Shown in pieces: positions 6,831 through 25,079 of a stretch of 25,079 bases of DNA (the stretch's first letter is position 1; every line of letters begins with the position of its first letter). Origin of the DNA: a virus; IMG/VR virus record IMGVR_UViG_3300028829_000334, positions 1 through 25,079 of that record. One strand, given 5' to 3'. The position numbers were made by a program, and so were the translations under genes. The notes beneath the pieces were generated by a model that had not been told where the DNA came from, ran no database searches, and saw nothing but the letters and a program-made list of their open reading frames with translations.

Positions 6831-6860
6831 AAGGGGGCTTAATTGCCCCCTCTTTTATTT
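6831..6860. terminator. Bidirectional rho-independent terminator between convergent arms
   Basis: GGGGGC at 6833-6838 pairs perfectly with GCCCCC at 6845-6850 around a six-base loop. On the + strand it is followed by TCTTTTATTT, and on the - strand by TTTAGTTTAT, so it can work both ways. It sits in the 28 bases between the stop of mazG and the stop of the - strand ejection protein, whose TAA is inside the T tract. Confidence 0.9.
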
Positions 6861-9800
6861 ACTAAGTACGCCTTTGTAGATTCTTCCTAGCTCTATTAGA
6901 GCCTCGACTTCACTTGCTTCTGACATCTCAGGTGGCTCACCGTTCTGACGCATCCACTCACTCATAGCAAGCTTACGTGTGTCCTTGTCAAGCTTACGGA
7001 ACTTCTCGTGTGCTAGTAGAAGTGGATCAGTTCTAGCGCCACTAACTTTTTTAGCTAAGTCTAAGAACTTATTCTTTTGTGCCTTGAGGTAGGGAACAAT
7101 ACGTTTGTTTACAAACTTATCTATACTTTCAGACTTTCTTACCGCCCTCATGTCAGGGTCTGTACTGTTTAAGTACTCCTTACGCAACGATGTCTCATAA
7201 GATTTTGCCATGTCTACAAGGGCAGGAACTGCTTCTTGCATGTACCCATTTTCAATACGTTTACGTGATGGTATCTTAGATTTGCTACCCATCTCCCAAT
7301 CATTGAAGCCCTTATCTTTAAGGTATTCTCCTGATGGTGTGTCCATTGAATACTGTGTAATACCTGAAACAAGACCCAAGCCCATAGCTTTACGTTCTTT
7401 GTCAGGTTGAAATATATCTATACGCTCTTCTCTTTCAAACTCTTTTGATGGGGTAAATACGTTAGTCAATCCAGCCTGTCTAAATGACCTAGAGGTTTCC
7501 TCTAAAGAAGCATCTAAATAACTTTCTGTTAGTGTGGCTCTATCATCAGCTTGATCTGCATACCACGCAGGTCTGTATCCTGTAGCCCTCTGTAACTCAG
7601 GTATTTGTGTGATAGGTATAGCCCATGTACGTAAGTAATCTGCAACGCCTCTTGATACAAGCTTCTTAGCAGACTCGCTAGACACTAAGTCTTTCTCACT
7701 TGCAATGATGTTACGTATTTCTTCGACGTAAATGTTTCCGACTCCTGTTCTTGCAGCAGTACCCAAGAAAGTTTCTTGCACATCCTTTACATCAAACCAA
7801 GATTCAAATGTACCTTCGTTTAATCTACGTGCGCCTTCAGCTATCCATAGTGCCTGACGCATAGGGAAAAAGGAAGTAGCATCCCAAACTGTACCCTCTT
7901 CTGTTTGTATCTCTTTGTAGTCTGTGGGTGCGTCATCAGAATTTCTGTATTGCATTGCTGCTAGTATGCCTAAACCACCAGTTAAGTTACGTGCTATATT
8001 CTGCCTGTCCTTGCGGTCAAACTTATCACCAAACTTTTTACCATCAATGTTAAACGCACGTTTAATCATAGGATTAAGTGCACCACCACCGTACTGACCC
8101 ATAAGTTCTAGTGATTTAAACATGAAACGTGGAAAAGGAGTGGTAACTGCAGTAAGACCGTTGCGAGTTAAGAAGTTACTTATGGTATTAAATACAGGTA
8201 CTTCAGGTGGACTTGCATACGTAATGTCTAACGCTCTTCTGGTGCTGTCTTCGATTAATTGTTCAAAGGCAGGTGCACCTTTAGGTCTAACCTTACTACT
8301 GTTAGCGATAAGATCATCTAACTTTCCTTCTTTAAGAAGCTCCATGAGATCTTTACCGTAATCACGTTTTACTAGGCGCTCTAGCTCCCCAATAAACGCA
8401 GCCCTACGTATTGTAAATTCTTGTATTCTGTTTGGTGTATTGAGTAGTGTTACAGCATCTTCTACTTTAGATAAACCCTTATCAATAAATCCACCCTGAC
8501 CTCTGCCTGTAGCAGTCTGATATTCATTAACTAGATCAAACATATTAGTGTGTTGCTTCATAAACTCAGGGCGTTTAAGTACAAAGTCTGTCACTTCTTT
8601 AGACAACACAGGATTTAAATACATTCTTTGTAGCATTCGAGTACTACCCGCGTAACTATCCCAGCTTGCTAAGGTTCTGCCACCTGCACCCAACGCTTTA
8701 GCGCCAGCCTTTAGTACGCCTATATCACCTCTTTTTTGAAACTGATTAGACATATTAAGTAAGATGTTATCAAAAACATTTTCAAGAGTTTCTAGTGGAG
8801 TACGTATAACCGCAGATCCAGCGTTACGAAACGCAGTCTTAACCATAGATACCATGCCACCACGACGAATGTTTTCGATTCGCCGCCAGCCTTTTACAAA
8901 CCTGTTTTGTTTATCAGCCTGTACCTTTTCCTTAGCTCTAGTTAAATTATCTAGTGATGCAGCCTTACGTAGCTGCGATAACTTATTAAGTATTTTACCA
9001 GCTTCTGATCCACCAGAAACAACCATGTGCACGTAGTCATCAAACGACAGGCCGTACTTAGACAGTACATCAGCCAACTCTTGACTGTCTGCAAAGCCAC
9101 TGTCTGCATCTGTAGTAAGTCTAAACAGACCCTCAATAATTGTTTCATCTTTACGAAATGCTTTAGGGTTTTTCTTTTTAAACTCAGAGGCTACTGCCAC
9201 AATAGCGTTAAACTTTTCTGGTTTAAGTAATGGGTTGACTAGTTCATCAGCTTCATCTGTTAAACCAGTTAGTGCCTTTTCTTCTGTTACTTTGTACTTA
9301 CGCTCAGCAGTAACTCTATTAGACACAAAGTCAGCAGCACGTATGTCCTGCATAGCCTTTACATCTTCTGCAACCTCAAGGCCATGTGCTTTAGCTGCAT
9401 TAAAGTCTAGTGTCTTTTTACCATTAACTGTCTTTGAAATTACAATAGCTTTACCTGTAACCTCAGATATACTGGCTTCGTATTCGTCAATAAGCTGATC
9501 TGCAATGTCAGGGTTTTCGTCAGCTACCTTTTTAGCTTCTGCTTGTTTAGCAGCCGTAACAGAAGCAGAGTTTTTCTCTATCTCTGCCATAGTACGAGCG
9601 CCTGTAGTCTTGTTCTTAAGACCTTTCAGCACAGGTGCTGCTATTTGTTTTGTTCCTGTTATAGTAAAGGCAAGTTCCGCTGCACTAATGCCAAGGTTAA
9701 TAGCCATAACCCCGTACTTACCGTCTTCGTAAGCTTGCCTTGCGTTAGCTACATTTTCAGGAATGTCAGCAATACCTAAAGCAGCACCTAAAAAGGGTGA

Positions 9801-10415
9801 CCACTCTGCGCCTTCAACTATGTATGTAATGTGTAAAGGGGAGTAACCTTGGTTCACTAAAGCTTCTGCAAGTTCCCTTCGTATAGGGTTATCACCCTTT
9901 AACATTTCGTTTACCATGAAGGCACGATCTTCACGCTCAATAAAGTAGTCACGCAAAACGTCTTCACGTGTAGGTTTTCTTTCGTCCTCTACTACACTAG
10001 CCCCTAAAGGATCTGACAAATCTAGCATGTAAAATTTACCATCTGACAGTAGTCTTCTGGAAGACCACGCTTTAACTGCCTTATCATACATAGCATCTAA
10101 ATTTTCTTCACCCTCATCGAAAGAAGTATTCATTAAAGCGTCTACACGAGGGTCTAATCCCTCTGGCTCTTCTGTTATTTCCTGCTGCTGTTGTACTTTT
10201 TCATAGATACTTTTATCAGGAGCCTTATACAAAGGAGCCTGTATGGTAGCCTTACCGTCTTCTGTTTCTTCCTCGTCAACTGTGCTTGTAACAGGAGCGA
10301 ACATATCCCCTAAAATAGTAGATTCCGCAACAGGGCTTGGCTCAAAAAGATCATCATCTCTTTGTTCCTCTGCACCATCAAAAGATGGTAGCTTAGGTGC
10401 AAACATATCTTCCAT
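6855..10415 (-). CDS. Large internal virion (DNA ejection) protein
   Basis: The protein has 1186 residues and is the last gene of the structural arm, which is where T7-like phages carry their largest internal core proteins (T7 gp16 has 1318 residues). The N-terminal ~110 residues are acidic and repeat the short motif MFAPKL/MFAPVT. Then come long helical stretches, a hydrophobic segment near 210-255, and a conserved-looking block with NTPNRIQEFTIRRAAFIGE around 655-675. No lytic transglycosylase motif was recognised, so the peptidoglycan-cutting role of T7 gp16 may be missing or placed in another protein. The ATG at 10415 overlaps the preceding stop (TAATG). An in-frame TTG at 10433 would add six residues but breaks the coupling pattern used in this arm. 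The function is inferred from size, place and composition. Confidence 0.75.
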   Translation of the reverse strand: MEDMFAPKLPSFDGAEEQRDDDLFEPSPVAESTILGDMFAPVTSTVDEEETEDGKATIQAPLYKAPDKSIYEKVQQQQEITEEPEGLDPRVDALMNTSFDEGEENLDAMYDKAVKAWSSRRLLSDGKFYMLDLSDPLGASVVEDERKPTREDVLRDYFIEREDRAFMVNEMLKGDNPIRRELAEALVNQGYSPLHITYIVEGAEWSPFLGAALGIADIPENVANARQAYEDGKYGVMAINLGISAAELAFTITGTKQIAAPVLKGLKNKTTGARTMAEIEKNSASVTAAKQAEAKKVADENPDIADQLIDEYEASISEVTGKAIVISKTVNGKKTLDFNAAKAHGLEVAEDVKAMQDIRAADFVSNRVTAERKYKVTEEKALTGLTDEADELVNPLLKPEKFNAIVAVASEFKKKNPKAFRKDETIIEGLFRLTTDADSGFADSQELADVLSKYGLSFDDYVHMVVSGGSEAGKILNKLSQLRKAASLDNLTRAKEKVQADKQNRFVKGWRRIENIRRGGMVSMVKTAFRNAGSAVIRTPLETLENVFDNILLNMSNQFQKRGDIGVLKAGAKALGAGGRTLASWDSYAGSTRMLQRMYLNPVLSKEVTDFVLKRPEFMKQHTNMFDLVNEYQTATGRGQGGFIDKGLSKVEDAVTLLNTPNRIQEFTIRRAAFIGELERLVKRDYGKDLMELLKEGKLDDLIANSSKVRPKGAPAFEQLIEDSTRRALDITYASPPEVPVFNTISNFLTRNGLTAVTTPFPRFMFKSLELMGQYGGGALNPMIKRAFNIDGKKFGDKFDRKDRQNIARNLTGGLGILAAMQYRNSDDAPTDYKEIQTEEGTVWDATSFFPMRQALWIAEGARRLNEGTFESWFDVKDVQETFLGTAARTGVGNIYVEEIRNIIASEKDLVSSESAKKLVSRGVADYLRTWAIPITQIPELQRATGYRPAWYADQADDRATLTESYLDASLEETSRSFRQAGLTNVFTPSKEFEREERIDIFQPDKERKAMGLGLVSGITQYSMDTPSGEYLKDKGFNDWEMGSKSKIPSRKRIENGYMQEAVPALVDMAKSYETSLRKEYLNSTDPDMRAVRKSESIDKFVNKRIVPYLKAQKNKFLDLAKKVSGARTDPLLLAHEKFRKLDKDTRKLAMSEWMRQNGEPPEMSEASEVEALIELGRIYKGVLSK

Positions 10416-11590
10416 TAACCTTGATGACCCCAAAGTAAATTACCAAAAGTAGTTTTTACTGCACTATAAACTTCACCATCATGGACATACTGTATAACGG
10501 TATTAGCATCGAAGCTTTGTTTTTCTTCAAGTACATCTTCAACGGTACGAGGTGTTCCATCAGATTTGGTAGCAGGTTTAAAATCAGCAGTACCATTAAC
10601 CTGCAATTGAGTAGCTAAGACTTGATCTTCTGCGCCACCTGCATTTAATTCTGCAATTGTTGTATTATAATTAGTCTCTACTCTGTTGACTAAAGTTGCT
10701 TTATACTTAATGTATTCTTTAAGCACTTCATTAATAGCAGTCTTAGCACCTGCATCATCTTTCCAAGGCTCTGCCTGTCTGCGAGCATCTAATGCTAAAT
10801 AAGAATCTAGGTATAACGCTGCAACATCACCTTCATTGCCACTCTGAAAAGATTTAATTAAACCTTCAGGAGTCAGTTCTACAAACTCTTTGCCTCTAAA
10901 CTTACTCTTAACAGCATTATTAACAATACTATCTAAGGATTGCTTACTAAAATAATCTCCACCTAAATCGTTTTTCTTTTTAAACTCTAGGTATTTTTCA
11001 TGTGTATTATTATACATACTTTGAAGCGCTGTTTTTTCATCCGCAGTTTTTGCTTGTGACATAGCAAAGTCTAGCTCCACAAGTCTAGCTTCAAATGTCT
11101 TAGCTTTAGTTGTTATTGTTTTGGGTAGGGGTTTAAACTTTTCTGCAAAAGGAATGGCTTCTCCTTGACGAACTGCTGGACCAGCCTTAGCCTCAGTACG
11201 TAAGGTTGTAGCAACAGGAGAAACCTCTGAGCGCTCTAACTCATAGTCTTGTACTTCATACATTGTTCTAGGATCTAAGTCTTGTGCGGAATAGTTTTGA
11301 GCTTTAGTTAATGCAAACTCAGCACCCGCCTGTCCTTTTGTAAGTATATCCGTAGTTTGTTCTGGACTATAGTATAATGATAGTTGTTCTGCTAAAAGCT
11401 CTAACTTACGTTCTTGTTCACGTTCTAACTTTTTTTCTGACCTTGCTGCATCACGAGCTTCTTTATCTATCATACGTTGTTCAAGACGTTCTTCTTCTCT
11501 TTTACGAGAAGCTTCTCTGTTTTGTTCTTGTATACGAGAAGTCATGCCTTCTGAAAAGCCACCAATAAATGCACCCATATTAAACGCCAT
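10415..11590 (-). CDS. Internal virion protein (putative ejection/core protein)
   Basis: The protein has 391 residues. It opens with a glycine-rich hydrophobic segment (MAFNMGAFIGGFSEGM), then a highly charged helix at about 18-70 full of Arg, Lys and Glu that reads as a coiled coil, followed by mixed helical sequence. The hydrophobic-then-charged N-terminus and its place between the 626-residue core protein and the 1186-residue protein fit a T7 gp14/gp15-type protein that forms part of the ejection tube. The ribosome site AGGAGA lies in the last codons of the upstream gene, and its TAA overlaps the next ATG. No enzyme motif is visible. The specific equivalence to T7 proteins is not established by sequence. 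Confidence 0.65.
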   Translation of the reverse strand: MAFNMGAFIGGFSEGMTSRIQEQNREASRKREEERLEQRMIDKEARDAARSEKKLEREQERKLELLAEQLSLYYSPEQTTDILTKGQAGAEFALTKAQNYSAQDLDPRTMYEVQDYELERSEVSPVATTLRTEAKAGPAVRQGEAIPFAEKFKPLPKTITTKAKTFEARLVELDFAMSQAKTADEKTALQSMYNNTHEKYLEFKKKNDLGGDYFSKQSLDSIVNNAVKSKFRGKEFVELTPEGLIKSFQSGNEGDVAALYLDSYLALDARRQAEPWKDDAGAKTAINEVLKEYIKYKATLVNRVETNYNTTIAELNAGGAEDQVLATQLQVNGTADFKPATKSDGTPRTVEDVLEEKQSFDANTVIQYVHDGEVYSAVKTTFGNLLWGHQG

Positions 11591-12099: not shown

Positions 12100-12304
12100 C
12101 TTTCATTGCCTTTCTTGCCATGTTAAGCTCACGAACATATTCAACAACCATTTCACTAGGTTCTTTTGTTGATGAAGTTTCTTCTGGCATCGTTGCTCTA
12201 CGTAACAACCCACCTTTTTCAGAAGTAGTTCCTGTTGCTACTTTTTTAGCCTGTGCCTTGCGTAAAATATTTAAGTATGCTCTTCTGTGATTATTATAAC
12301 TCAT
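12092..12304 (-). CDS. Small basic protein (70 residues), unknown function
   Basis: The preferred start is the ATG at 12304, which overlaps the stop of the 626-residue protein (TAATG), giving 70 residues beginning MSYNNHRRAYLNILRKAQAK. An in-frame ATG at 12322 would add six residues but overlaps the upstream gene more deeply. The first 25 residues are a basic amphipathic helix, the middle is Thr/Ser/Glu rich and probably disordered (GTTSEKGG, PEETSSTKEPSE), and the end is a helix. The overlap with both neighbours supports expression. The function is unknown. The tail-tip or core neighbourhood suggests a virion or assembly role. Confidence 0.65.
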   Translation of the reverse strand: MSYNNHRRAYLNILRKAQAKKVATGTTSEKGGLLRRATMPEETSSTKEPSEMVVEYVRELNMARKAMKDG

Positions 12305-14184
12305 TACGATCCCCATAACCATTTGCTAATAGCGCTATCTTTATCTGCAGTAAGTAGACTAGACACAAAATTACCAACTGCTCTGGAGTTAGCGTTACTG
12401 TCTTCGTCATTCGCACGAGAAGAGTATCCTTTTTGTCTTAGCTCTTCTAGTACTATTGCATTAATTCTATCTCTGTCGCTTTCTGCAGCGTTGAATGCCC
12501 ACGTCATAGTATCGTTATAAAATGAGTACAGATTATTATATGCAGTGTTAGAAACATCTAATGCATTTTTAGCGTTTAATTCACTTATTCTATTTTCAGT
12601 AGCATTATCAACAGTAGCAATTTGTCTACGCCAGTTAGCATTAAACTGATCTACTACCAGTCTATTGTTAGCATTGAATTGCTCACGTTGATTCTGTACA
12701 TTAGCGTTAAACTGTTCCATAGCATTTTGTTGGCCTGAATTATACTGTGCAATAGCATTAGCTTGTGCCGCATTAAATTGACTAACCTGAGAAGATAGAC
12801 CATCATAGAATTGATTAGTTTGATTTTCTGATGTTGCATTAAATGCATTAGCAGCATTTTCTGCAGCGGCATCTGTAAACATACTCTGTACTCTCGACTG
12901 TGCAGCAAACATATTAGCAGTCTGTCTATTATTTAAATTTGCCATATCCATCTGCATGAAGTTTTGTGCGTTTTGAACTGCGGCCTGTTGGCGATTGTTA
13001 AGATTAGCCATATCTAAGTTAGACAATGCAGCAGCCTCTGCCATAACAAGTGCTTGTCTATTGTTTAAGTTAGCCATATTCATGGTATTAGCTATACGAC
13101 TATTTTCAAGTGCAATTGTTTGCTCTGCAGTAAAATTCATATTAGCTATATCAGATACTTTACTAGCGTTTATAACACGAGCTTGAAATGCTTGATCGAA
13201 CTCTTGTCCTAAAAACTGCGCGCGTTGTTGTGCTGCAAGCATAGCACGTTGCTGACGATTAGATAAGTTTTGTGATTCAAATTTTGCAAAGGTAGCTGCG
13301 TCTGCTTGTGCTATAGGGAGAGCACTTTCAAGTGCAGCTTGAACCATAGCCTGCCCTGCCATACTAGATGCTCCAATACCACGAGAAGCCATAGATGCCA
13401 TTACTCCACGCAAAGCACCTGCAGCATACGCAGGCGGGTTGCTGGCGTCAAAGTCTCTAGTTAACTCAGCTAGTTGCCCAGATACTGTAGCTTTTTCAGT
13501 AGGAGTAGCTTGTGCTGCCTGCACTTCTTCAGTAAATTTAGCAGCTTTTTCTGCGTTAGCTGTTGAAGATACAAGTTCACCTTCTTGTATTTCGCGTTGT
13601 ACAGGGTTATCCATTAGGATGCCTTGACCCTGCTCCGCACTTAAATTAGAGACAGAACTTTCAGTCTGTTGTTCTGCTGTTACCTGAGCTTTTTCAGAAA
13701 CTTCCCCTTGCTCTACTTTAACATCTGCAGCTTTATCTACATCATCTTTAGTAGTAACAGTTTCTACTTTAGCAGCTTCTCTGGGATCAACTACAGGTGC
13801 AGCTTGTGTAGTGTCTACAGTTTTAACTTCCGCTGTAACAGGTTCTTTTGTCTGGCCTACAGAACTATCTACTACTTGCTCTGTGGTTTCCTCTATAAGC
13901 GTAGGGGTCGCCTTAGTAGCAGCAGGCATCGCCGCTGAAGGATCAAGTATTCTTTCTATGGTTACTTCAGGTACGGTTTTACCCGCATCACCACCAGGAG
14001 CAAAACTTTTAACTACGCCCCCACGAGCCATAGCCATAGCAGACTGTCGATACGAGTCCATCTTTTGCATTGCACTAGGATTACTTTGAAGGAACTGATC
14101 AAAGTTATTCATGTCTCCTTGATAACCAAGGGAACCTGCAATACGACTCATTGCATCTGGCTTAAATCCTTTAAACTGCATCAT
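12304..14184 (-). CDS. Internal virion/core protein with long 11-residue (hendecad) repeat
   Basis: The protein has 626 residues. The N-terminus (1-65) contains a helical segment and ARGGVVKSFAPGG, a motif I associate with marine phage structural proteins. Residues 70-245 are Thr/Glu/Val/Ala-rich and likely disordered. From about 300 to 540 it is almost all helix, Asn/Gln/Ala-rich, with MANLNNRQ at 370, 392 and 414 (exactly 22 apart) and a Q-[FY]-N-A motif whose aromatic falls at 448, 459, 470, 481, 492, 503 and 514 (exactly 11 apart). Eleven-residue repeats favour long, nearly straight helices or right-handed coiled coils, suitable for a tube or rod in the ejection apparatus. AAGGAA precedes the ATG at 14184. 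The next codon is also ATG, so the start is uncertain by one residue. Confidence 0.75.
   Translation of the reverse strand: MMQFKGFKPDAMSRIAGSLGYQGDMNNFDQFLQSNPSAMQKMDSYRQSAMAMARGGVVKSFAPGGDAGKTVPEVTIERILDPSAAMPAATKATPTLIEETTEQVVDSSVGQTKEPVTAEVKTVDTTQAAPVVDPREAAKVETVTTKDDVDKAADVKVEQGEVSEKAQVTAEQQTESSVSNLSAEQGQGILMDNPVQREIQEGELVSSTANAEKAAKFTEEVQAAQATPTEKATVSGQLAELTRDFDASNPPAYAAGALRGVMASMASRGIGASSMAGQAMVQAALESALPIAQADAATFAKFESQNLSNRQQRAMLAAQQRAQFLGQEFDQAFQARVINASKVSDIANMNFTAEQTIALENSRIANTMNMANLNNRQALVMAEAAALSNLDMANLNNRQQAAVQNAQNFMQMDMANLNNRQTANMFAAQSRVQSMFTDAAAENAANAFNATSENQTNQFYDGLSSQVSQFNAAQANAIAQYNSGQQNAMEQFNANVQNQREQFNANNRLVVDQFNANWRRQIATVDNATENRISELNAKNALDVSNTAYNNLYSFYNDTMTWAFNAAESDRDRINAIVLEELRQKGYSSRANDEDSNANSRAVGNFVSSLLTADKDSAISKWLWGS
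12565..13287 (-). repeat. Hendecad-repeat coding region
   Basis: This segment encodes about residues 300-540 of the 626-residue core protein. NLSNRQ at residue 306 and NLNNRQ at 372, 394 and 416 are 66, 22 and 22 residues apart, all multiples of 11. The F/Y/V/L-N-A register continues every 11 residues from 448 to 536. The repeats are clear in the protein and degenerate in the DNA. Confidence 0.8.
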
Positions 14185-14915: not shown

Positions 14916-15706
14916 TATTCTACTATTTCAAATACAGCAGAAGTTAGACAGGTAGAAGTGTGAATAGAACTTAAAGTTATTGAATTTGTTTGTTGTTGAT
15001 GCTCTCCTGCAGCTTGTGAAACCAACATTGTACTTCGTTCAATCATAAAACCGCTATCGTTTCCCGCACTTAAACTTGTACTAGAGTTAAAATTCCTAAA
15101 CTCATTACTAAAAGAACTAAACTCAGGACTTCTAGATACAAACCCAGAACCACCTGATTTAAGTCCTATAGAAACTATTATAGTGGCACCACTAGACGAA
15201 GAAAAAGGAGTATCAGAATCTTTAGGGCTTTTTGTTGTAATTGTTCCAGAGGTATTATTAGTACCAACAGAATCCGTTGAATATACATTAAAATTAGTAT
15301 ATGTATAATTGGGTCTTACTAAGAATACAGACCCGTCTGTAACTGCATAACCATCTGTACTACTAGACATAAACCCACCAATTGTAGTATTAGTTTCTGT
15401 ACCATTACAGACTTTATAACTTATGTTAGCTACATGTACTTTATTACCAGATAAAGTATTAACAACCCCAGCCGCAACAGTAAAACCTGTACCACCAAAA
15501 TTATTAAAATTTGGTAATGTTGAATACGAAGCATCAGCAGCAACTTGACGTGCTATTAGTATATCACCAGACTTAACGGTAACATCACTGGGTAAACTAA
15601 CCTGACCAGTACTTGCGCTGATAAATGCATACAAGGACGAAAATGAAGGTCTGTATATAAAACTTGCTGTCTTATTTGAGGGAGGAATAGTAGGAAAAGG
15701 AAACAT
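14915..15706 (-). CDS. Putative tail-fibre-associated structural protein, unknown fold
   Basis: The protein has 263 residues, rich in Ser, Thr, Gly and Asn, with the alternating hydrophobic pattern of a beta-structured surface protein. It has no signal peptide and no catalytic motif. Its start overlaps the stop of the long tail fibre (TAATG) and its stop overlaps the next ATG in the same way. Genes of this kind directly after a tail fibre often encode a fibre tip, a fibre chaperone or a second receptor-binding subunit, and any of these would fit. The N-terminal part has Pro-rich sequence (FPFPTIPPSN) and the C-terminus includes GEHQQQTNSITLSSIHT. I do not recognise a family. Confidence 0.7.
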   Translation of the reverse strand: MFPFPTIPPSNKTASFIYRPSFSSLYAFISASTGQVSLPSDVTVKSGDILIARQVAADASYSTLPNFNNFGGTGFTVAAGVVNTLSGNKVHVANISYKVCNGTETNTTIGGFMSSSTDGYAVTDGSVFLVRPNYTYTNFNVYSTDSVGTNNTSGTITTKSPKDSDTPFSSSSGATIIVSIGLKSGGSGFVSRSPEFSSFSNEFRNFNSSTSLSAGNDSGFMIERSTMLVSQAAGEHQQQTNSITLSSIHTSTCLTSAVFEIVE

Positions 15707-17826
15707 TATTGAAGAGCCTGTATTTGCAAATGCGTAAACCCATTTATCTTTGTAATAAACAAAAAGAAATCATCAGCATCTGTAGTTGTAAAACCTCCAG
15801 AAGATTTAGTAAATCCTGATAGCGTGACTGTTCCAGCAGATGCATTGTTTGTCATTTGAATAACTAAAGTATAATCACCTGCTGCTGTAGGTGCAGCTAA
15901 GGTAAAAGCACCGCCATTAATAATACGTTTTAAGTTACCGCCTGCAGGAGCAGGGGTATACGTACCGCTTGATTTAGTACCATCATCATCTGCTGTTGCT
16001 GTATAACCAGCCGTAATGTTATCATCTGTATCTGCTTTTAATATTTCAACGTCTGCAGTTTCCTTACCGTCCAGCGCATCTTGTAGTCCATCTACGTTTG
16101 CAATAGTATGATTGTGACTATCATCAGATACAGTAGCAGTTAATGTAACGTCTGCATCACCTTTAAAACTTACACTACCAGTAAGATCGCCTCCAAGAGT
16201 AATGGTTCTTGCAGTCGTTAGTGCTGCAGCTAAAGTAGCTGTACTCGCATTACCAGTTACAGATCCAGTAAACGTAGCGTCTGTTCCGTCTGTACCACTG
16301 TTTAGTACAACTGAACCATTCGTAGCTTTAGTATCGCCTGTTATATCGCCTGTTATATTTCCCGTTATATCACCAGAAATATTTCCCTCAAGATTAGCCA
16401 CTAGAGTTGCTACTGCATAACCACTGCTGCTTGCAGTGCTTGTGTTAACTACTGTACCTGACGGTTGATTGAGTGTGTCTTTAAATAGCTTCCATTTTTC
16501 ATCTGTAGCATCTCTAAAAAAACCAGTGTATCTATTTGCTGTACCGTCATTGTATTTACCATAAACACCTATATCAACAGAGTCACTAGTATTGTTTCTT
16601 GCTAAATCTATTAAAGGATCTTCTACAGAAAGATTAGTAGTATTTATAGTTGTTGTAGTACCAGATACAGTTAAGTCACCACCTACAATAATATTACCAG
16701 TAGTTTCTATTTCTCCAAAAAAACCTTTTTGCCATGTAGTCGTAGCGTCACCTAAAGTAAAGGAACCTGTAGAAGGTATAATGTTAGAAGCTACGTCTGA
16801 GTTAATAGTCACTGTATTGTTAGCATCTGTGCCTAATATAGTATTACCAGAAATTGTAGTGTTACCTGATATAATTGAGTTACCTGCAAGGGTACTATTA
16901 ATGCCACTAAATGTTATTGCAGTAGCAGTTCCAGATTTAATAACAAGACTACCAGAATTATTACTCAAGCCGCCCCACGTAACACCATCATCTTTTAACA
17001 AAACATTACCATCAGATACGTCTAAACTTAAATCGCCAGTAGAAAGGCTTAACGTAGTAGAATCTAAAATAAAATCGTCTAATACTAATCTACTTAATGT
17101 AGTAGACCCTACAACTTCTAACGTACCCTGAATAACTGTGTTGCCTGTATTATCTGCAACTGTAAATTTATCTGTATCATTAACGTCTATTTTTTCTGAA
17201 ACTACAAGGCCACCATTAAGAGTAGTGACACCTGCCACTTTTAATATGTTGTCTAAAGTAGTCTCATCTGTAACATCTAGCTTACCCGCAAGATCAATAT
17301 CAGCATCTGTAAATGTGGCTGCTGTAGTTGTATTAGATTTAATAATAAGATTACCTGAGTTATTATTTAAACTTCCCCACGTAACTGTATCGTCTAATAA
17401 AACTACATCGCCACCATCTACATTTATATTGATATCACCAGCAATATCTAAAGTTAAATCTCCAGCAGTTACATCAACTTCATTATTAGTAATGATTAAA
17501 TTACCAGTATTACCTGCGGCTATTGTGTGGCCCTTAACAATACCATCAAAGTACGCATCTTTAAACATATTACCAGTACTGCCTAGATCCGTAAAGTTAG
17601 TTGTTTTAGGAGTTACGGCACCCGCACTAACAATAATATTTTGGCTTGGTCCTACTTTTGTAATTGGAGCGCCTTCTCCTGCACTGCCATCGTGCTTGTG
17701 CCCTTGATTAACTCCCTCATTAAACGCAGCTTCAATTGCATTATATTCTGCGTCAAAATCATCTGCATCAATAACATTACCATTAGCAATATTGTTTGCA
17801 CCATCTTGTCTTGTGTAACCTGCCAT
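15706..17826 (-). CDS. Long tail fibre protein
   Basis: The protein has 706 residues. The N-terminus (1-65) has DADDFDAEYNAIEAAFNEG and GHKHDGSAGEGAPI, a block I know from phage fibre or base proteins that attach to the tail. Most of the rest is Gly/Thr/Asp/Asn-rich beta-repeat sequence typical of trimeric fibres. An internal duplication links residues about 123-173 with 265-307 (VTWGSLNNNSGNLIIKS and VTWGGLSNNSGSLVIKS). A block around 400-460 (TVSGTTTTINTTNLSVEDPL, then IGVYGKY and RDATDEKWKLF) is like cyanophage structural proteins. The C-terminal ~85 residues form a separate beta domain ending HLQIQALQ. It follows the nozzle gene as T7 gp17 does and starts after AAGGAA. It probably binds host receptors. 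Confidence 0.85.
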   Translation of the reverse strand: MAGYTRQDGANNIANGNVIDADDFDAEYNAIEAAFNEGVNQGHKHDGSAGEGAPITKVGPSQNIIVSAGAVTPKTTNFTDLGSTGNMFKDAYFDGIVKGHTIAAGNTGNLIITNNEVDVTAGDLTLDIAGDININVDGGDVVLLDDTVTWGSLNNNSGNLIIKSNTTTAATFTDADIDLAGKLDVTDETTLDNILKVAGVTTLNGGLVVSEKIDVNDTDKFTVADNTGNTVIQGTLEVVGSTTLSRLVLDDFILDSTTLSLSTGDLSLDVSDGNVLLKDDGVTWGGLSNNSGSLVIKSGTATAITFSGINSTLAGNSIISGNTTISGNTILGTDANNTVTINSDVASNIIPSTGSFTLGDATTTWQKGFFGEIETTGNIIVGGDLTVSGTTTTINTTNLSVEDPLIDLARNNTSDSVDIGVYGKYNDGTANRYTGFFRDATDEKWKLFKDTLNQPSGTVVNTSTASSSGYAVATLVANLEGNISGDITGNITGDITGDTKATNGSVVLNSGTDGTDATFTGSVTGNASTATLAAALTTARTITLGGDLTGSVSFKGDADVTLTATVSDDSHNHTIANVDGLQDALDGKETADVEILKADTDDNITAGYTATADDDGTKSSGTYTPAPAGGNLKRIINGGAFTLAAPTAAGDYTLVIQMTNNASAGTVTLSGFTKSSGGFTTTDADDFFLFITKINGFTHLQIQALQ

Positions 17827-17835
17827 GTTGTTTCC

Positions 17836-19473
17836 TTATTGTCTATCTTCTTGGCTGTATTCTAATAAAGCCGTATCAAGCGTAAATGTAGGGTTAGTTG
17901 AAAAATCTGATAACCTTATAGCTATAGTTTTTCCAGATCCAATTACATTTAAGTTATAAACGTTATCTAATACACCGCCGTATGTACCATATGTATGTGT
18001 AGAATTATATCCTGACCAACTGGTATTTACTAAAGTTTTATCTGATGGATCTTTTTCTGCAAAACGCACAGAAGTTCCAAATATAAATACAGCACTACCA
18101 GTACTAGATATTTGTTGAGTAGCTGGTTGAATTATTTTTGTATTTGTAGCTGAGGCAAAATCATATTTAATATTTAAATTTAATGCCATACTTGCAGTAG
18201 GCTCTGCGTACAAAGTCATTTTATAAAACGTCTTACGCATTTGAGGGTCTGTAAGGGGCATAAAAGGAGACTCATAAATAGCCTCTATTGCGCTACCATT
18301 AAAGGTAGCTCCAGTTTCCATTATATAAACATAGCCATCTTCATTAGCAAATGCTAATGTTTCTAATGTATTAGTATATCTACTATCTGCTATATGTGCT
18401 TTAATACCTTTTATAGTAGACCAAGATAAACCACCACCACCTTGAGATACAAATTTAGTTGCGATTAAACCTTTTGCTGCTTCTGTTTGTTCAGATTGAA
18501 CATAAGCAAAAATACGATATTGAGCTTTTTCTTTAAGTACAACAGAACAAAATATAGGAGTCTGATTTAAAAATGTAGTAGCATCTTTTACTATAATATC
18601 TGATACTACGTCTAATCCAAAGTCTCCTATACGATCTGTAGCACTCAATAGCCTAATACCATCAGGAGCCAGATACATAATATCGCCGCCCACTTCTTGA
18701 ATAGTATCCCCGTTAATGCAGCCAATACCGTTTGTAATAGGAGATATAACAAAATCAGCAGAGCTACTACCTGTTATTCTTTTAATCGTATCAGTAGTAA
18801 ATACGATAAGTTGATCACGAAAGGATATTAATCCAGTTACTTTGTTGCCTACATTAATAACCCCAGCACCATTAGCTACATTAAAATCGTCTACAGATTG
18901 TGGTGCTGTAAAATAAATATTATTATCTTTAGCATAGAATGCTGTAGATTTAAAGTATGCTACGTGTTGAGCGCCTAAAGGATCATTAGTTCCAATATCA
19001 TTTGAATCATTGCTGGAATCGTTTTTTAAAAAAGTAAGTGTGTTACCTGATGTATTGTATATAGCGGGAAAATTAGTTCCGTCTACAAATATAACCTTAT
19101 CATCGCCGTTTAGATTATATAAAACACTCTTAGCTTTACCTCCATTTGTAGCAGCACTAGACCCTAAACTAGTCCAACTTGTACCTGAACTTCTATAATA
19201 TTCAGTTTTATTATTGGTTGAATTTTTTCTTGCAGCTACAATATTACCTGAACCAATTACTTTAAGTGCTAGTATAGGACCAGTTCCTGTAACTGCAGTG
19301 TTGCTGTACTTATTATATCCTTTTAATTTAGTATATCCACCTTCTTTATTTACCTCAAAGTTTTGTAGTATAGTAGCAGATCCAACAGCATTAGTACCAT
19401 GCTGAAGTGGGCTAAGATTAGAGATAAGACCCCCTCTAAACTCAATAGGAAATGTCTGCCATTGTGTTGCCAT
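17836..19473 (-). CDS. Tail tubular protein B (nozzle; T7 gp12-like)
   Basis: The protein has 545 residues and directly follows tail tubular protein A, as gene 12 follows gene 11 in T7. The N-terminus (about 8-60) has EFRGGLISNLSPLQHG, then SATILQNFEVNKEGGYTKLKG, the 'fixed offset, name the variable, rule the region' opening that is common to podovirus nozzle/stabilisation proteins. The centre is beta-propeller-like, with LISFRDQLIVFTTDTIKRIT (about 216-235) and IMYLAPDGIRLLS, followed by a C-terminal beta region. It is shorter than T7 gp12 (794 residues), like nozzle proteins of other marine podoviruses. It seals the tail tip and holds fibres. TAATG couples it to the preceding gene. Confidence 0.85.
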   Translation of the reverse strand: MATQWQTFPIEFRGGLISNLSPLQHGTNAVGSATILQNFEVNKEGGYTKLKGYNKYSNTAVTGTGPILALKVIGSGNIVAARKNSTNNKTEYYRSSGTSWTSLGSSAATNGGKAKSVLYNLNGDDKVIFVDGTNFPAIYNTSGNTLTFLKNDSSNDSNDIGTNDPLGAQHVAYFKSTAFYAKDNNIYFTAPQSVDDFNVANGAGVINVGNKVTGLISFRDQLIVFTTDTIKRITGSSSADFVISPITNGIGCINGDTIQEVGGDIMYLAPDGIRLLSATDRIGDFGLDVVSDIIVKDATTFLNQTPIFCSVVLKEKAQYRIFAYVQSEQTEAAKGLIATKFVSQGGGGLSWSTIKGIKAHIADSRYTNTLETLAFANEDGYVYIMETGATFNGSAIEAIYESPFMPLTDPQMRKTFYKMTLYAEPTASMALNLNIKYDFASATNTKIIQPATQQISSTGSAVFIFGTSVRFAEKDPSDKTLVNTSWSGYNSTHTYGTYGGVLDNVYNLNVIGSGKTIAIRLSDFSTNPTFTLDTALLEYSQEDRQ

Positions 19474-20485: not shown

Positions 20486-22771
20486 TTACGCTGCTACATA
20501 TACAGACTTTTTGTTGTCTTGTGGAGACACATAAACAATACGTGATTGTGGATTAATGTGTACTATATTGTTACTACTTTCAGGTAGTATGTAAACTGTG
20601 TTAGACTTTTCAGTTACATAAATGTTATCTTTAGTATCTTGTACCCTTAGATAAATTAGTCTATTTTTTGAGAAATTATCTACATTATAATTAGTTACAT
20701 TTTCAACTACTGTAACAGTTCCAGAAGAACTTGTCAAACCAGATAGTGATACAGCAGCACTTGTACCAATATTTATACTGTTACCTGTTGATGTAAATAA
20801 ACCTTCACTTACAGGGTTTATTATAGTAAAGACAGAATCTTGTCTTGTAATAGTAAAGTTAACTGAATCAGTTATTATGGAGGGTAAGTAGTCTAATACT
20901 GCAGCATGACCTGTTAAAGTAAATAAACCATTTAGTACAGACTCAGCTACAATCTTATTTACATCTTGACCAGTAATTGTAAATGTAGCAACTTCTAATG
21001 AAACACGTAAGTGCTTTACAAAGTTTGTGTCTTGACCCGTTACAATAAAGATGCCACTAGTTACACCTTCGCCAATAATACGTTCTGAGTCTTGTCCTGT
21101 TAGGGTAAAGTTGCCTTGATCAGCTACAAAATGTAGAACCGCTGCTGTGTTAACGTTTTGACCCGTAAGGCTAAACGTACCTACTAAGAAGACTTCACTT
21201 ATTGTTTCTGTAACCGCTTGACCAGTTAAGGTAAACCTAAAGCCATCGACAACACCTATTGTGTTGCCCATACCGTTGCCATGTACGGTACAGTAGTATC
21301 TTAAATCATCTGGTGCATCTGAGGCTACAGTTATCGTTACTGTAGCTCCTGAAGTACCTGCTGTTCCACTAGAGCTTACACTTGTAGTGTAACTGTTACC
21401 ACTACCATCTTTAAAACGTAATGGGTGATTAGAGTTAGAAGCATCACTTTGATCAAAGATATATGTTCTATTACGTTCTAGCGTTAGAACAGGATGATTA
21501 ACACCATCAATGTAGAAGACATTGCCACCACCATCATTGGCTACTGTAATAGTAAATGTCTTATCTGCAGTTTCAGCTTCAGCTACTAGGACTCTGTTGA
21601 TGTTTAAGTTAGAGTCTTGTACTGTTACAGCAAACGATTCACTTATTACACTCTCTACTACAGACTTAGTTAGATTTACATCTTGTCCTGTTAGAGAGTA
21701 GCTATTGCTTTCTACAACCTCAACAATGTCAGCATTAACATCCTGACCTGTAAGTGCAAACGTACCTGTGTCTGCAACAAGAAGCTGTACTTTTCTAGGA
21801 TCAGCATCCACCCCAGTCAGAGTAAATGTACCTGCGTCTGCTACTACATTAAGTTGTGCAGATACACTAGCGTCTTGTCCAGCTAAGGTAAAGCTACCAG
21901 AAGTTACATCAACACTACGTACAGAATTAGGTGTAGCATCTTGTAGTGTAGAAGTAAAGGAACCTACACCTGCAGGGAATGTAATACTAAATACAGAAGC
22001 CTGTCCAACTAGTGCAAGTGTACTTAAATCGACAGGGTATTCTACGCTACTTACAATGTCTTGACCTGTAAGGCTAAACAAACCTGTATTGGCTGTAAAT
22101 ATTTGACCTCTGATAAGATCATCTGCAGCCTGTGTTGTAGCGGTAAATGTGCCTGCATCTGCAGACAGATTAAGTGACTTAGTAACGTCTGTATCTTGAC
22201 CTGTTAGTGCAAACGTACCTGTAGTAACTTGTTCTACTGTATCAACATTTAATACAGAGTCTTGACCTGTAGTAGTAAATGTACCTACATCTACGGATAG
22301 GGATTTACCCTCAATAAACTCTGCATCTTGACCCGTAAGTGTAAAGCTACCTGTGTTAGCCAAGAAGCTGTCTTGTACAGACAGGTTAGTTAGAGTAATG
22401 CCAGTAAGTGTAAAGCTACCAGTAGTAACTTGCTCTACTGTATTAACATTTAATGCAGAGTCTTGGCCTGTAGTAGTAAAGGTACCTACATCTACGGATA
22501 GGGATTTACCCTCAATAAACTCTGCATCTTGACCCGTAAGTGTAAAGCTACCTGTGTTAGCCAAGAAGTTGTCTTGTACAGATAGGTTAGTTAGGGTTAT
22601 ACCAGTAAGAGTAAAGCTACCGTGATCTACATCTACGCTACGTACAGAGTTTAATGTAGCGTCTTGGCCCGTAAATGCAAGGCTACCATTGGCTGCAACT
22701 ATAGAGTATGCAACACCAATGGCCCCATCATCTGCAAGTGGGGCAGCAGCTAATGGGGAAAAGCCAAGCAT
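20486..22771 (-). CDS. Virion beta-repeat protein with inserted cupredoxin-like domain
   Basis: The protein has 761 residues. About 17 copies of a 20-23-residue unit centred on G-[ST]-F-[TA]-L-T-G-Q-D fill residues 30-395. A different domain follows at about 402-509, then eight more units (aromatic at 513, 533, 555, 575, 597, 617, 639, 659). The end (700-761) has short strands such as IYV, VYI, VHI, VYV about 10 residues apart. The inserted domain reads as a cupredoxin: FTITVAN, FDQSDASNSNHPLRF with H449, and YYCTVHGNGMG with C494-x2-H497-x3-M501, so all four type-1 copper ligands are present. A structural, surface-exposed role is likely from its place among tail and fibre genes. AAGGAG supports the start. 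The copper content is inferred only from residues. Confidence 0.8.
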   Translation of the reverse strand: MLGFSPLAAAPLADDGAIGVAYSIVAANGSLAFTGQDATLNSVRSVDVDHGSFTLTGITLTNLSVQDNFLANTGSFTLTGQDAEFIEGKSLSVDVGTFTTTGQDSALNVNTVEQVTTGSFTLTGITLTNLSVQDSFLANTGSFTLTGQDAEFIEGKSLSVDVGTFTTTGQDSVLNVDTVEQVTTGTFALTGQDTDVTKSLNLSADAGTFTATTQAADDLIRGQIFTANTGLFSLTGQDIVSSVEYPVDLSTLALVGQASVFSITFPAGVGSFTSTLQDATPNSVRSVDVTSGSFTLAGQDASVSAQLNVVADAGTFTLTGVDADPRKVQLLVADTGTFALTGQDVNADIVEVVESNSYSLTGQDVNLTKSVVESVISESFAVTVQDSNLNINRVLVAEAETADKTFTITVANDGGGNVFYIDGVNHPVLTLERNRTYIFDQSDASNSNHPLRFKDGSGNSYTTSVSSSGTAGTSGATVTITVASDAPDDLRYYCTVHGNGMGNTIGVVDGFRFTLTGQAVTETISEVFLVGTFSLTGQNVNTAAVLHFVADQGNFTLTGQDSERIIGEGVTSGIFIVTGQDTNFVKHLRVSLEVATFTITGQDVNKIVAESVLNGLFTLTGHAAVLDYLPSIITDSVNFTITRQDSVFTIINPVSEGLFTSTGNSINIGTSAAVSLSGLTSSSGTVTVVENVTNYNVDNFSKNRLIYLRVQDTKDNIYVTEKSNTVYILPESSNNIVHINPQSRIVYVSPQDNKKSVYVAA
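21245..21568 (-). other. Cupredoxin-like domain within the repeat protein
   Basis: This stretch encodes about residues 402-509 of the 761-residue protein and interrupts its repeat array. H449 in SNHPL and C494/H497/M501 in YCTVHGNGM match the order His, Cys, His, Met of plastocyanin-like copper sites. Closely similar segments occur, from memory, in other marine phage and marine bacterial proteins. Confidence 0.7.
22221..22622 (-). repeat. Tandem 201-bp direct repeat (two copies)
   Basis: Two copies of 201 bases, 22221-22421 and 22422-22622, are adjacent, in frame and nearly identical. The run ctacggatagggatttaccc occurs in both, exactly 201 bases apart. Each copy codes for 67 residues (three beta-repeat units, including SVQDxFLANTGSFTLTGQDA). 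The few base differences point to a recent duplication. Confidence 0.9.
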
Positions 22772-23100: not shown

Positions 23101-24075
23101 TTAGGCGTAAATAAGTTCAGATGTGGTAATACTAGTAGTCCACCTGATATTGGTTGATGCTGCACCAGTAACTTGTACTTTTAAGCCACCGTTAGTTGTG
23201 TCAGCGGATAAAGCCATGCCCCAAGACGGTGTGTTGTCTAAGACAGTAGTGGCTGAGTTTACTAATACAGTTGTACCAGCATTAGCTTCCCTACGAATTA
23301 GTCCTTCTATCTTCCATGCTGCACAAGCTGTACCATCACCTGCTTTTTGACGAGCTACGATAGTGCCGTGAAAAGCGTAAGCACTGTTATTGGGTAGAAC
23401 GATTTGATTAGCAGTACCCGCACCTGGCGTGGTTGCGTGATTTGTAACCATTGCAGTGGCAGTGGCATCAGTTGTATCAGCCATCAATGGATATAAGCCA
23501 ATTTGAGCATCACCCTGATTGGCATGCTGACTGCCAGAAAACTTAATAGATGACTGGATATTGTTCTGACCAGCGTTCCCAATACAGATTGAATACGTTG
23601 CAGAAGCTAAAGAGTTACGACCAAGTGAAACAGAAGAATCTCCAGTAGCAAATGTTTGAGCGCCAAAGGCATGTGCCCCCCAATTAGTAGCGTTTGCCCC
23701 AAACCCAAATGCACCACTGCTAGAGCCAGTTGCTTTTGCGTAGTTCATTAGGGCAGCGGCCCCAGAACCACTAGCACCGTAGCTAGATGTGTTGTATGCT
23801 ATAGCGGCTGCGAAGCTGTCTGCGCCAGATGCTCTGGAATTTGCGAGGGCCATTGAATTAGTATTACTACTAACCGCCGAATCCCCTATGGCGATCGCAT
23901 TCGTACCAGTGGCTGAAGGTTGGGCTGAAGGAGAGCTTTCATTAGCAGCATAAAGGTCAGCACCACCACCACCACCACCACCAATAGCTGTTCCGTCGAG
24001 TAGAAGGCTAGTACCGTCAGAGCTAAGGGTTATAGCACTACCTGATCCTGTGTTATCTAAATTAACTGATCCCAT
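23101..24075 (-). CDS. YadA-head-like adhesin/fibre protein, second tandem copy
   Basis: The start at 24075 gives 324 residues: it overlaps the previous stop (TAATG) and has GGAGGT nine bases upstream. An ATG 13 codons earlier lies within the first adhesin gene. The N-terminus (1-31, GSVNLDNTGSGSAITLSSDG) is a short attachment-like domain, followed by seven glycines. Then comes a head of repeats such as NAIAIGDSAV, AFGFGANA and ISLGRNSLA-type units that resemble the left-handed beta-roll of YadA/trimeric adhesins. A conserved C-terminal domain (about 215-324) has LPNNSAYAFHGTI, AAWKIEG, ALSADTTNGG and SIRW/NIRW-type blocks. It is a paralogue of the gene upstream. It likely forms a trimeric surface fibre on head or tail that binds the host. 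Confidence 0.8.
   Translation of the reverse strand: MGSVNLDNTGSGSAITLSSDGTSLLLDGTAIGGGGGGGADLYAANESSPSAQPSATGTNAIAIGDSAVSSNTNSMALANSRASGADSFAAAIAYNTSSYGASGSGAAALMNYAKATGSSSGAFGFGANATNWGAHAFGAQTFATGDSSVSLGRNSLASATYSICIGNAGQNNIQSSIKFSGSQHANQGDAQIGLYPLMADTTDATATAMVTNHATTPGAGTANQIVLPNNSAYAFHGTIVARQKAGDGTACAAWKIEGLIRREANAGTTVLVNSATTVLDNTPSWGMALSADTTNGGLKVQVTGAASTNIRWTTSITTSELIYA
23961..23982 (-). repeat. CAC-triplet run encoding a seven-glycine linker
   Basis: Seven tandem CAC triplets on the + strand (ACC in the coding phase) code for a Gly7 hinge between the short N-terminal domain and the repeat head of the second adhesin. A similar Gly-rich stretch is at the right edge of the window in the first adhesin. 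Confidence 0.9.
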
Positions 24076-25079
24076 TAGTATGTTACCTCCGTAGTATTCA
24101 CGGTTGCCACCCACCTGATGGAGTGTGAAGCCTCACCTGTTACTGTAATAGCTACAGCGCCGTTTGTTGCGTCTGCTGACAAAGCTATACTCCAGTTAGC
24201 TGCACCTGTGCTTTCACTGATTTTGTTTATATTGTACGAGCCAAGGGTTGTTGAGGCTGCATTAGCTCCTCTAACTGCACCACCTTTAACTTCCCAAACA
24301 GCGAAGTCGTTTGTTTGCGCTGAGTTTTCACGGGCAATAACTGTACCTGTAAAGCCATAGCAAGAGTTGTTAGGCAGCGTAATTGAATTTGTTGCTGATG
24401 CAGCATTACCTGGAATAGATGTAAGTTGGGCAGGTGTTGCGTCTGTTGTTTCTTTTCCTAATACAAGTTCACCAGTTTGGCAATTACCTATTTGTGCGCT
24501 AAAAGTAGAGGAGCTATGAACCCTTTTACCTTGTACATTTGATCTACCTCTTACTCCTGTAGTGACACAGCCCGTTTCAAGTGCTTCTGAAAGTGCGCCA
24601 ACTGCAAAACTATAAAAACCTGAAGCTGTTGACGAATGACCTAATGCAACAGTTCTACCTCCATCAGAAATACAACTTTTTCCTATAGCAACAGAACCAT
24701 CACTAGTAGCTTTTGAAGTTTGACCAATAGCAATACTATTAGCACCACTAGCGCCGTAAGTATTAGTGTTGTTTACTATGGCTGCTGCAAAACTTTCTGT
24801 ACCAAAAGCACCAGCGTTTCCAAACGCCATAGAATAATTACCCTGAGCAAGAGCATTATAGCCAAAGGCTCCAGCCCTAGTTCCTATCGCATCTGTCTGT
24901 GTTCCTATTGAAAAACTTTCAGCACCTTGTGCGTATGCATTTTCGCCAATAGCTACTGCATCGCTTGCAGGCGCTCTAGCATTAAAGGCAATGGCTACAG
25001 CATTTGTGCCAGTAGCACTAGGAGCAGTAGGACTAGACGGGTTCTCAGCGTAAAGCTCAAGTGCTCCACCACCGCCACC
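24075..25079 (-). CDS. YadA-head-like adhesin/fibre protein, first tandem copy (5' end outside the window)
   Basis: The frame is open to the right edge, so at least 334 residues are present and the true start lies beyond 25079. An internal ATG at 24830 is only within the repeats. The visible part begins with five glycines and LYAENPSS, then SATGTNAVAIAFNARA, and continues with many AIGxNAxAxG units (IGQTSKATSDGSVAIGKS) typical of YadA-type heads. The C-terminal domain (LPNNSCYGFTGTV, FAVWEVKGGAVRGANA, ALSADATNGA, SIRWVATVNTTEVTY) matches that of the next gene block for block. It is therefore a diverged tandem duplicate. It probably encodes a trimeric fibre or adhesin on the virion surface. 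TAATG links it to the second copy. Confidence 0.8.
   Translation of the reverse strand, partial: GGGGGALELYAENPSSPTAPSATGTNAVAIAFNARAPASDAVAIGENAYAQGAESFSIGTQTDAIGTRAGAFGYNALAQGNYSMAFGNAGAFGTESFAAAIVNNTNTYGASGANSIAIGQTSKATSDGSVAIGKSCISDGGRTVALGHSSTASGFYSFAVGALSEALETGCVTTGVRGRSNVQGKRVHSSSTFSAQIGNCQTGELVLGKETTDATPAQLTSIPGNAASATNSITLPNNSCYGFTGTVIARENSAQTNDFAVWEVKGGAVRGANAASTTLGSYNINKISESTGAANWSIALSADATNGAVAITVTGEASHSIRWVATVNTTEVTY
24085..24090 (-). promoter_or_regulatory. Strong ribosome-binding site for the second adhesin
   Basis: GGAGGT on the - strand lies nine bases before the ATG at 24075 and fixes that start. It is one of the best Shine-Dalgarno matches seen in this arm, although the start already overlaps the upstream stop, so the second adhesin may be translated independently as well as by coupling. 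Confidence 0.8.

Follow-up and report, generated by a model that had tools for sequence, protein, structure and literature searches.

A predicted cupredoxin domain with a type-1 copper ligand set in a phage fibre-like protein

Does a phage fibre-like protein carry a domain built like a blue copper protein and, if so, what might such a domain be doing on a virion? The question is raised by a stretch of viral DNA of 25,079 nt (IMG/VR record IMGVR_UViG_3300028829_000334, positions 1 to 25,079; hereafter the window), in which one gene encodes a protein with an array of GxFxLTGQD-type repeats (Table 1). In this protein, which we call the carrier, the initial annotation had located a cupredoxin-like domain that interrupts the array and holds H449, C494, H497 and M501 in the order of blue-copper ligands, and the translation confirms the residues and their numbering. 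The domain, of ~108 residues, does break the array (the insertion as a whole spans about residues 398-512), with GxFxxTGx repeats flanking it on both sides and none lying within it. Trp is absent from the 761 residues of the carrier, Cys occurs once (C494) and Met, apart from the initial M1, also once (M501); M1 aside, sulphur is thus found only in the two side chains that a type-1 copper site calls for. When sequences were shuffled 20,000 times each, a loose version of the ligand pattern, H-x(30-60)-C-x(2-4)-H-x(2-5)-M, came up once for the whole protein and 19 times for the domain alone; this pattern was picked post hoc, with the sequence already known, and the conservation described below is stronger evidence against chance. 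Elsewhere in the repeat array, at 22200-22601, there is a tandem duplication of 201 nt (67 aa) whose copies are 92% identical, and the length of the carrier's shaft is evolving through unequal duplication.

Table 1. The carrier gene, its domain and ligand codons, and the two neighbouring adaptor genes (positions in the window)
Feature	Position	Strand	Evidence
Head-tail adaptor of SU10 type, 227 aa	19473..20156	-	Pfam PF24175, E 7.5e-17; phrog_10775 tail protein
Podophage fibre-tail adaptor (gp77-like), 105 aa	20159..20476	-	Pfam PF23148, E 4.3e-16, above cut-off
Carrier gene, GxFxLTGQD-type repeat protein, 761 aa	20486..22771	-	ORF translation; empty-site orthologue L205
Cupredoxin domain, residues 402-509	21245..21568	-	AlphaFold2 pLDDT 95.9; PDB matches; profile match
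M501 codon, axial ligand, sole internal methionine	21269..21271	-	Translation; isolate set
H497 codon, second histidine ligand	21281..21283	-	Translation; isolate set
C494 codon, sole cysteine of the carrier	21290..21292	-	Translation; isolate set
H449 codon, N-terminal ligand loop (NHPL)	21425..21427	-	Translation; 30/32 in isolate set

The first issue is the fold. The AlphaFold2 model of the domain, for which 33 aligned relatives from viral contigs served as input, has nine strands (pLDDT 95.9, pTM 0.88) and conforms to the definition of the cupredoxin superfamily, a Greek-key beta-sandwich of ~100-150 residues. When this model was compared with the PDB using Foldseek, cupredoxins led the ranking (nitrite reductase 2dv6, rusticyanin, laccases and plastocyanin), and the top match in VIA-align was the N-terminal cupredoxin domain of 2dv6 (Z 10.3, rmsd 2.3, 97 residues, 21% identity), with laccases and nitrite reductases supplying the cupredoxin domains in the remaining top rows. 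Since a Z of 8-10 is not by itself decisive for a small beta-sandwich, sequence profiles were compared as well. A model of the full-length carrier, built from seven sequences as a single chain, is poor (pLDDT 53), and its low score over the domain is attributable to the mere two identical rows available there, versus 33 in the domain model. Structure prediction and comparison have returned the cupredoxin fold that had been proposed and not another one, and there is hardly any doubt left that residues 402-509 adopt it. In BFVD, the domain model has counterparts (TM ~0.7, 19-24% identity) among the predicted beta-sandwiches of Pithovirus LCPAC302/304 and Marseillevirus LCMAC201, and giant viruses may, judging from such models, also have cupredoxin-like proteins.

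Homology to copper proteins was assessed with a profile of true cupredoxins, consisting of 36 PF00127-type domains from 30 bacterial Copper-bind loci plus poplar plastocyanin, the sequence of the latter having been checked against 1plc. Using hhalign, the phage family matched this profile with a probability of 96% (E 4.8e-9), versus 2.8% at most in 20 column-shuffled controls, and the alignment pairs H, C, H and M of the phage family with H, C, H and M of cupredoxins, the first His falling on plastocyanin's first His ligand. The ligand loop reads C-x2-H-x2-M in 71 of the 90 phage members and C-x2-H-x3-M in the other 19, both spacings being found in the bacterial PF00127 set, and a type-1 ligand set, defined as His plus Cys-x(2-4)-His-x(2-5)-Met in homologous loops, is present. 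By homology, that is, from the common register and the fold match and without measured distances, the four ligand side chains are close together, and the site is in all likelihood able to bind copper; there are no metal or occupancy data.

The domain escapes the standard signatures. Even at E up to 1, Pfam Copper-bind (PF00127) hits nothing in the window, nor does it match any member of the aligned phage set, which is why we file the domain in the cupredoxin superfamily and not in PF00127. Searches of the family against Pfam and NCBIfam yielded sub-threshold matches only, among which single members scored E about 0.07-0.09 against plastocyanin and halocyanin; a single-sequence search of the PDB found no cupredoxin, only antibody light chains matched via the YYC strand, and the profile search found no confident cupredoxin. 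The criterion for the plastocyanin subfamily, an Asn following the first His ligand (a second-shell hydrogen bond), is not fulfilled: this residue is Pro in 85 of 90 members and never Asn among those read, and the second shell therefore differs. A Tyr lies two residues ahead of Cys in 89/90 members. An internal disulfide is excluded because 89 of 90 members have a lone Cys in the domain and the entire carrier has only one.

The only invariant columns in a 39-row alignment are Y437, F439, H449, C494, H497, M501 and G502. In a set made non-redundant at 80%, C, H and M are kept in 58 of 58 cases and the first H in 59 of 60, and in isolates – which include cyanophages Syn1, S-SM1, Syn33, S-TIM5, P-SSM2 and P-HM1, Pelagibacter phages Baldr and Mosig, and Methylophilales phage Melnitz – each ligand is missing from at most one of 30 full domains, whereas the adjacent G502 is present in only 20. 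Among 93 members with less than 70% identity, all four ligands (HCHM) stand in 89, H, C and H have vanished jointly from three (which read YAQM, FSTM and FAVM at the ligand positions) and one is HCHL; Met-to-Leu substitution occurs in natural copper sites. Not one of these 93 has lost H, C or H singly, when about nine would be expected if losses were independent, which argues that H, C and H evolve as one unit, like a metal site. The patterns and profiles used for finding members contained parts of the motif (YYCTVHGN was among the six patterns), which favours intact copies, and degenerate members were sought on purpose, with the ligand-free isolate domain of phage RN05-S as query. Homologues do not, then, freely replace the ligands, and the alternative that had initially been left standing, namely that these residues are kept for structure only, is disfavoured by the joint losses. 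A ligand-free clade (L301, 201-446; loci L383-L426), in which H, C and H are gone and Met and the fold-shaping residues are kept, represents a natural control without ligands; the persistence of this derived clade implies that the copper site is dispensable in some members.

What kind of protein carries the domain is inferred from its neighbours and from relatives. The PF23148 gene immediately downstream of the carrier, which is followed by the PF24175 gene, is of the gp77 type, gp77 being the fibre-tail adaptor of podophage GP4. Location beside a gp77-type adaptor gene is one criterion for a podophage fibre attached through such an adaptor, gene order is conserved in relatives, and the carrier is thus probably a fibre that docks on that adaptor. 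The tail or fibre association put forward at the outset gains support from this arrangement, and from relatives of the domain that lie within annotated tail proteins, and it is very probable that the carrier is virion-borne. Just upstream, at 23101-25079 on the minus strand, are two proteins with YadA-head repeats (PF05658), one of 337 aa and one of at least 334 aa that runs past the end of the window, and both are probably further fibre or decoration proteins. On the same strand, a 706-aa fibre-like protein (15706-17826) has near its N-terminus an H-x-H motif, GHKHDG, of the type proposed for iron, which is a potential second virion metal site, and three structural-cluster proteins of 1192, 626 and 391 aa (6855-10433, 12304-14184 and 10415-11590) have no PHROG match. 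A second match in the window, at 18943-19113 (E 3.7e-4, 25% identity), was unsupported by the family profile and was discarded.

What the gene at the carrier's position encodes is highly variable. Across the 80 relatives that are nearest in the adaptor, its content changes, its product ranges from about 210 to 670 aa, and the domain occurs in only one of them, a near-identical contig. Four orthologues have N-terminus, repeats and C-terminus in common with the carrier and are without the domain; at the insertion point, one of these (L205) simply reads SNLNINRVLSSDAGT-FSLTGQ. In 14 more distant loci, the domain is again in the gene beside the same adaptor pair, once as two tandem copies. Taken together, empty-site orthologues and distant carriers indicate that the domain is a module that comes and goes at a hypervariable fibre locus.

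This module is widespread. Its relatives are encoded in at least 584 viral contig stretches, and the PHROG matches of the proteins concerned are tail fibre, baseplate wedge-tail fibre connector, baseplate wedge subunit and virion structural protein. In cyanophages, the domain makes up the C-terminal end of gp9, which links to the long tail fibres and is, by homology to T4, a virion component (334 phage records match), and it is also found in pelagiphage fibres. For S-SM1, a virion proteome of 41 proteins has been published (PMC3037559). The hosts of domain-carrying phages include Synechococcus, Prochlorococcus, Pelagibacter and Methylophilales, and these phages are mostly marine. Carriers are mostly cysteine-poor outside the domain, with none there in 43 of 117. 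Some phages have the domain twice: L023 in two adjoining genes, L084 and L081 in a single protein whose second copy no longer has the C-terminal half of the ligand set. The domain is unnamed in Pfam or PHROGs. A single scan of genome contigs gave one match, in a marine Dehalococcoidia assembly contig, one of 201 genomes of that phylum matched, and an origin of the domain from hosts is not shown.

The best overall explanation, which we hold to be reasonably likely, is that the domain is an exchangeable copper-type cupredoxin module in a fibre-like protein, displayed for contact with the host envelope. The carrier would fold inside the host cell, and each domain would take up one copper ion, most likely after lysis, from periplasm or water. 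The metal-loaded site would then stiffen the loop face, with H497 exposed on the outside of the fibre, and it is this metal-capped face that would most likely contact the host envelope, an idea resting on the hypervariability of the gene position, which is like that of a receptor-binding gene. Host contact as the domain's main role is inferred and can be advanced only tentatively; indeed, host-envelope contact and metal-stabilised folding are about equally open. That very abundant marine phages use type-1 copper in fibres and baseplate connectors for attachment or for triggering infection, via the bound copper or its redox state, is on balance somewhat unlikely; it would amount to a copper version of the Trojan Horse proposed for iron.

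If folding is what the metal serves, copper would act as a staple locking a beta-sandwich spacer or decoration for stability in water, with no role in host recognition, which is a serious possibility if not a probable one. It would account for the presence of the domain within shafts and at the C-termini of connectors, not always at tips, for its use as a generic module in many unrelated carriers, and for the fold-shaping Met and aromatic positions that the apo clade retains. However, the persistence of ligand-free members indicates that the fold manages without metal, so that a mere staple should have disappeared more frequently, and any of many beta-sandwich modules could be a spacer. A redox-active virion site, exchanging electrons or copper with the host envelope and thereby sensing or triggering commitment or exploiting copper uptake (as the 'Ferrojan' or Trojan Horse idea has it for iron), is distinctly unlikely: H-C-H-M is the ligand set of electron transfer, the Tyr before Cys is nearly universal and HxH iron motifs have led to marine phage fibres being proposed as adhesins that bear metal (PMC11705849), but there is no partner and hosts are diverse. 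Such a trigger, be it redox or copper exchange, is conceivable, yet nothing supports it. It is quite improbable that the fold is metal-free in nature, its residues being held for packing only. Cytoplasmic assembly is copper-poor, and the Met kept by the ligand-free clade shows that Met can serve packing, which would suit such a reading; yet the absence of single losses among the 93 members, where independent loss predicts some nine, and the location of the carrier's sole Cys exactly in the site both speak against it. Type-1 sites accept Zn or other ions under copper scarcity, but the Met-axial ligand set, in register with that of copper proteins, makes it very improbable that Zn or Fe fills the site instead of copper.

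Set beside known systems, the copper-type module that we favour has plastocyanin, amicyanin, pseudoazurin and bacterial PF00127 proteins among its closest counterparts, with which it has in common the Greek-key fold and His and Cys-x2-His-x(2-3)-Met in register; unlike type-1 blue copper proteins, it is embedded in fibre or baseplate proteins and is sub-threshold in Pfam. It also resembles the N-terminal domain of the Hyphomicrobium denitrificans nitrite reductase (2dv6 and 6tfo; Z 10.3 and 9.8, ~20% identity), which is likewise a module within a larger protein, although that protein is a redox enzyme whereas the phage carrier has no catalytic copper domain. With HxH iron fibres (T4 gp37 type; Alteromonas phage R22Y), it shares being a proposed metal feature on a marine phage fibre (PMC11705849), but in those the histidines are paired in a trimeric fibre and iron is proposed, while each phage domain has a mononuclear copper-type site to itself. 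Cyanophage petE, a host-derived plastocyanin metabolic gene (PMC3037559), likewise encodes a cupredoxin in a phage, but its product is a free protein serving the metabolism of the infected cell, not a domain fused into virion proteins. Viral nirK is similarly a separate metabolic gene and not a fibre cupredoxin domain (PMC8115048).

No report of a cupredoxin in phage fibres or virions was found in the open-access literature, which is weak evidence of novelty since subscription journals were mostly not covered, and the nearest published idea is that of iron-binding HxH fibres (PMC11705849). What appears to be new here is the virion-borne setting, the fold and the site themselves being already known. 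A fold and a likely cofactor can now be assigned to a domain that is common in records of 'virion structural protein' or 'tail fibre' without function, and its recurrence in tail proteins suggests that virus particles may have copper on their surface, for which there are no occupancy data. If the site does hold copper, then (i) virions would represent a class of marine copper protein, in cyanophages, pelagiphages and Methylophilales phages, (ii) phage adsorption would be tied to trace-metal chemistry and (iii) a role for metal in infection would become simply testable, by chelation and with site mutants.
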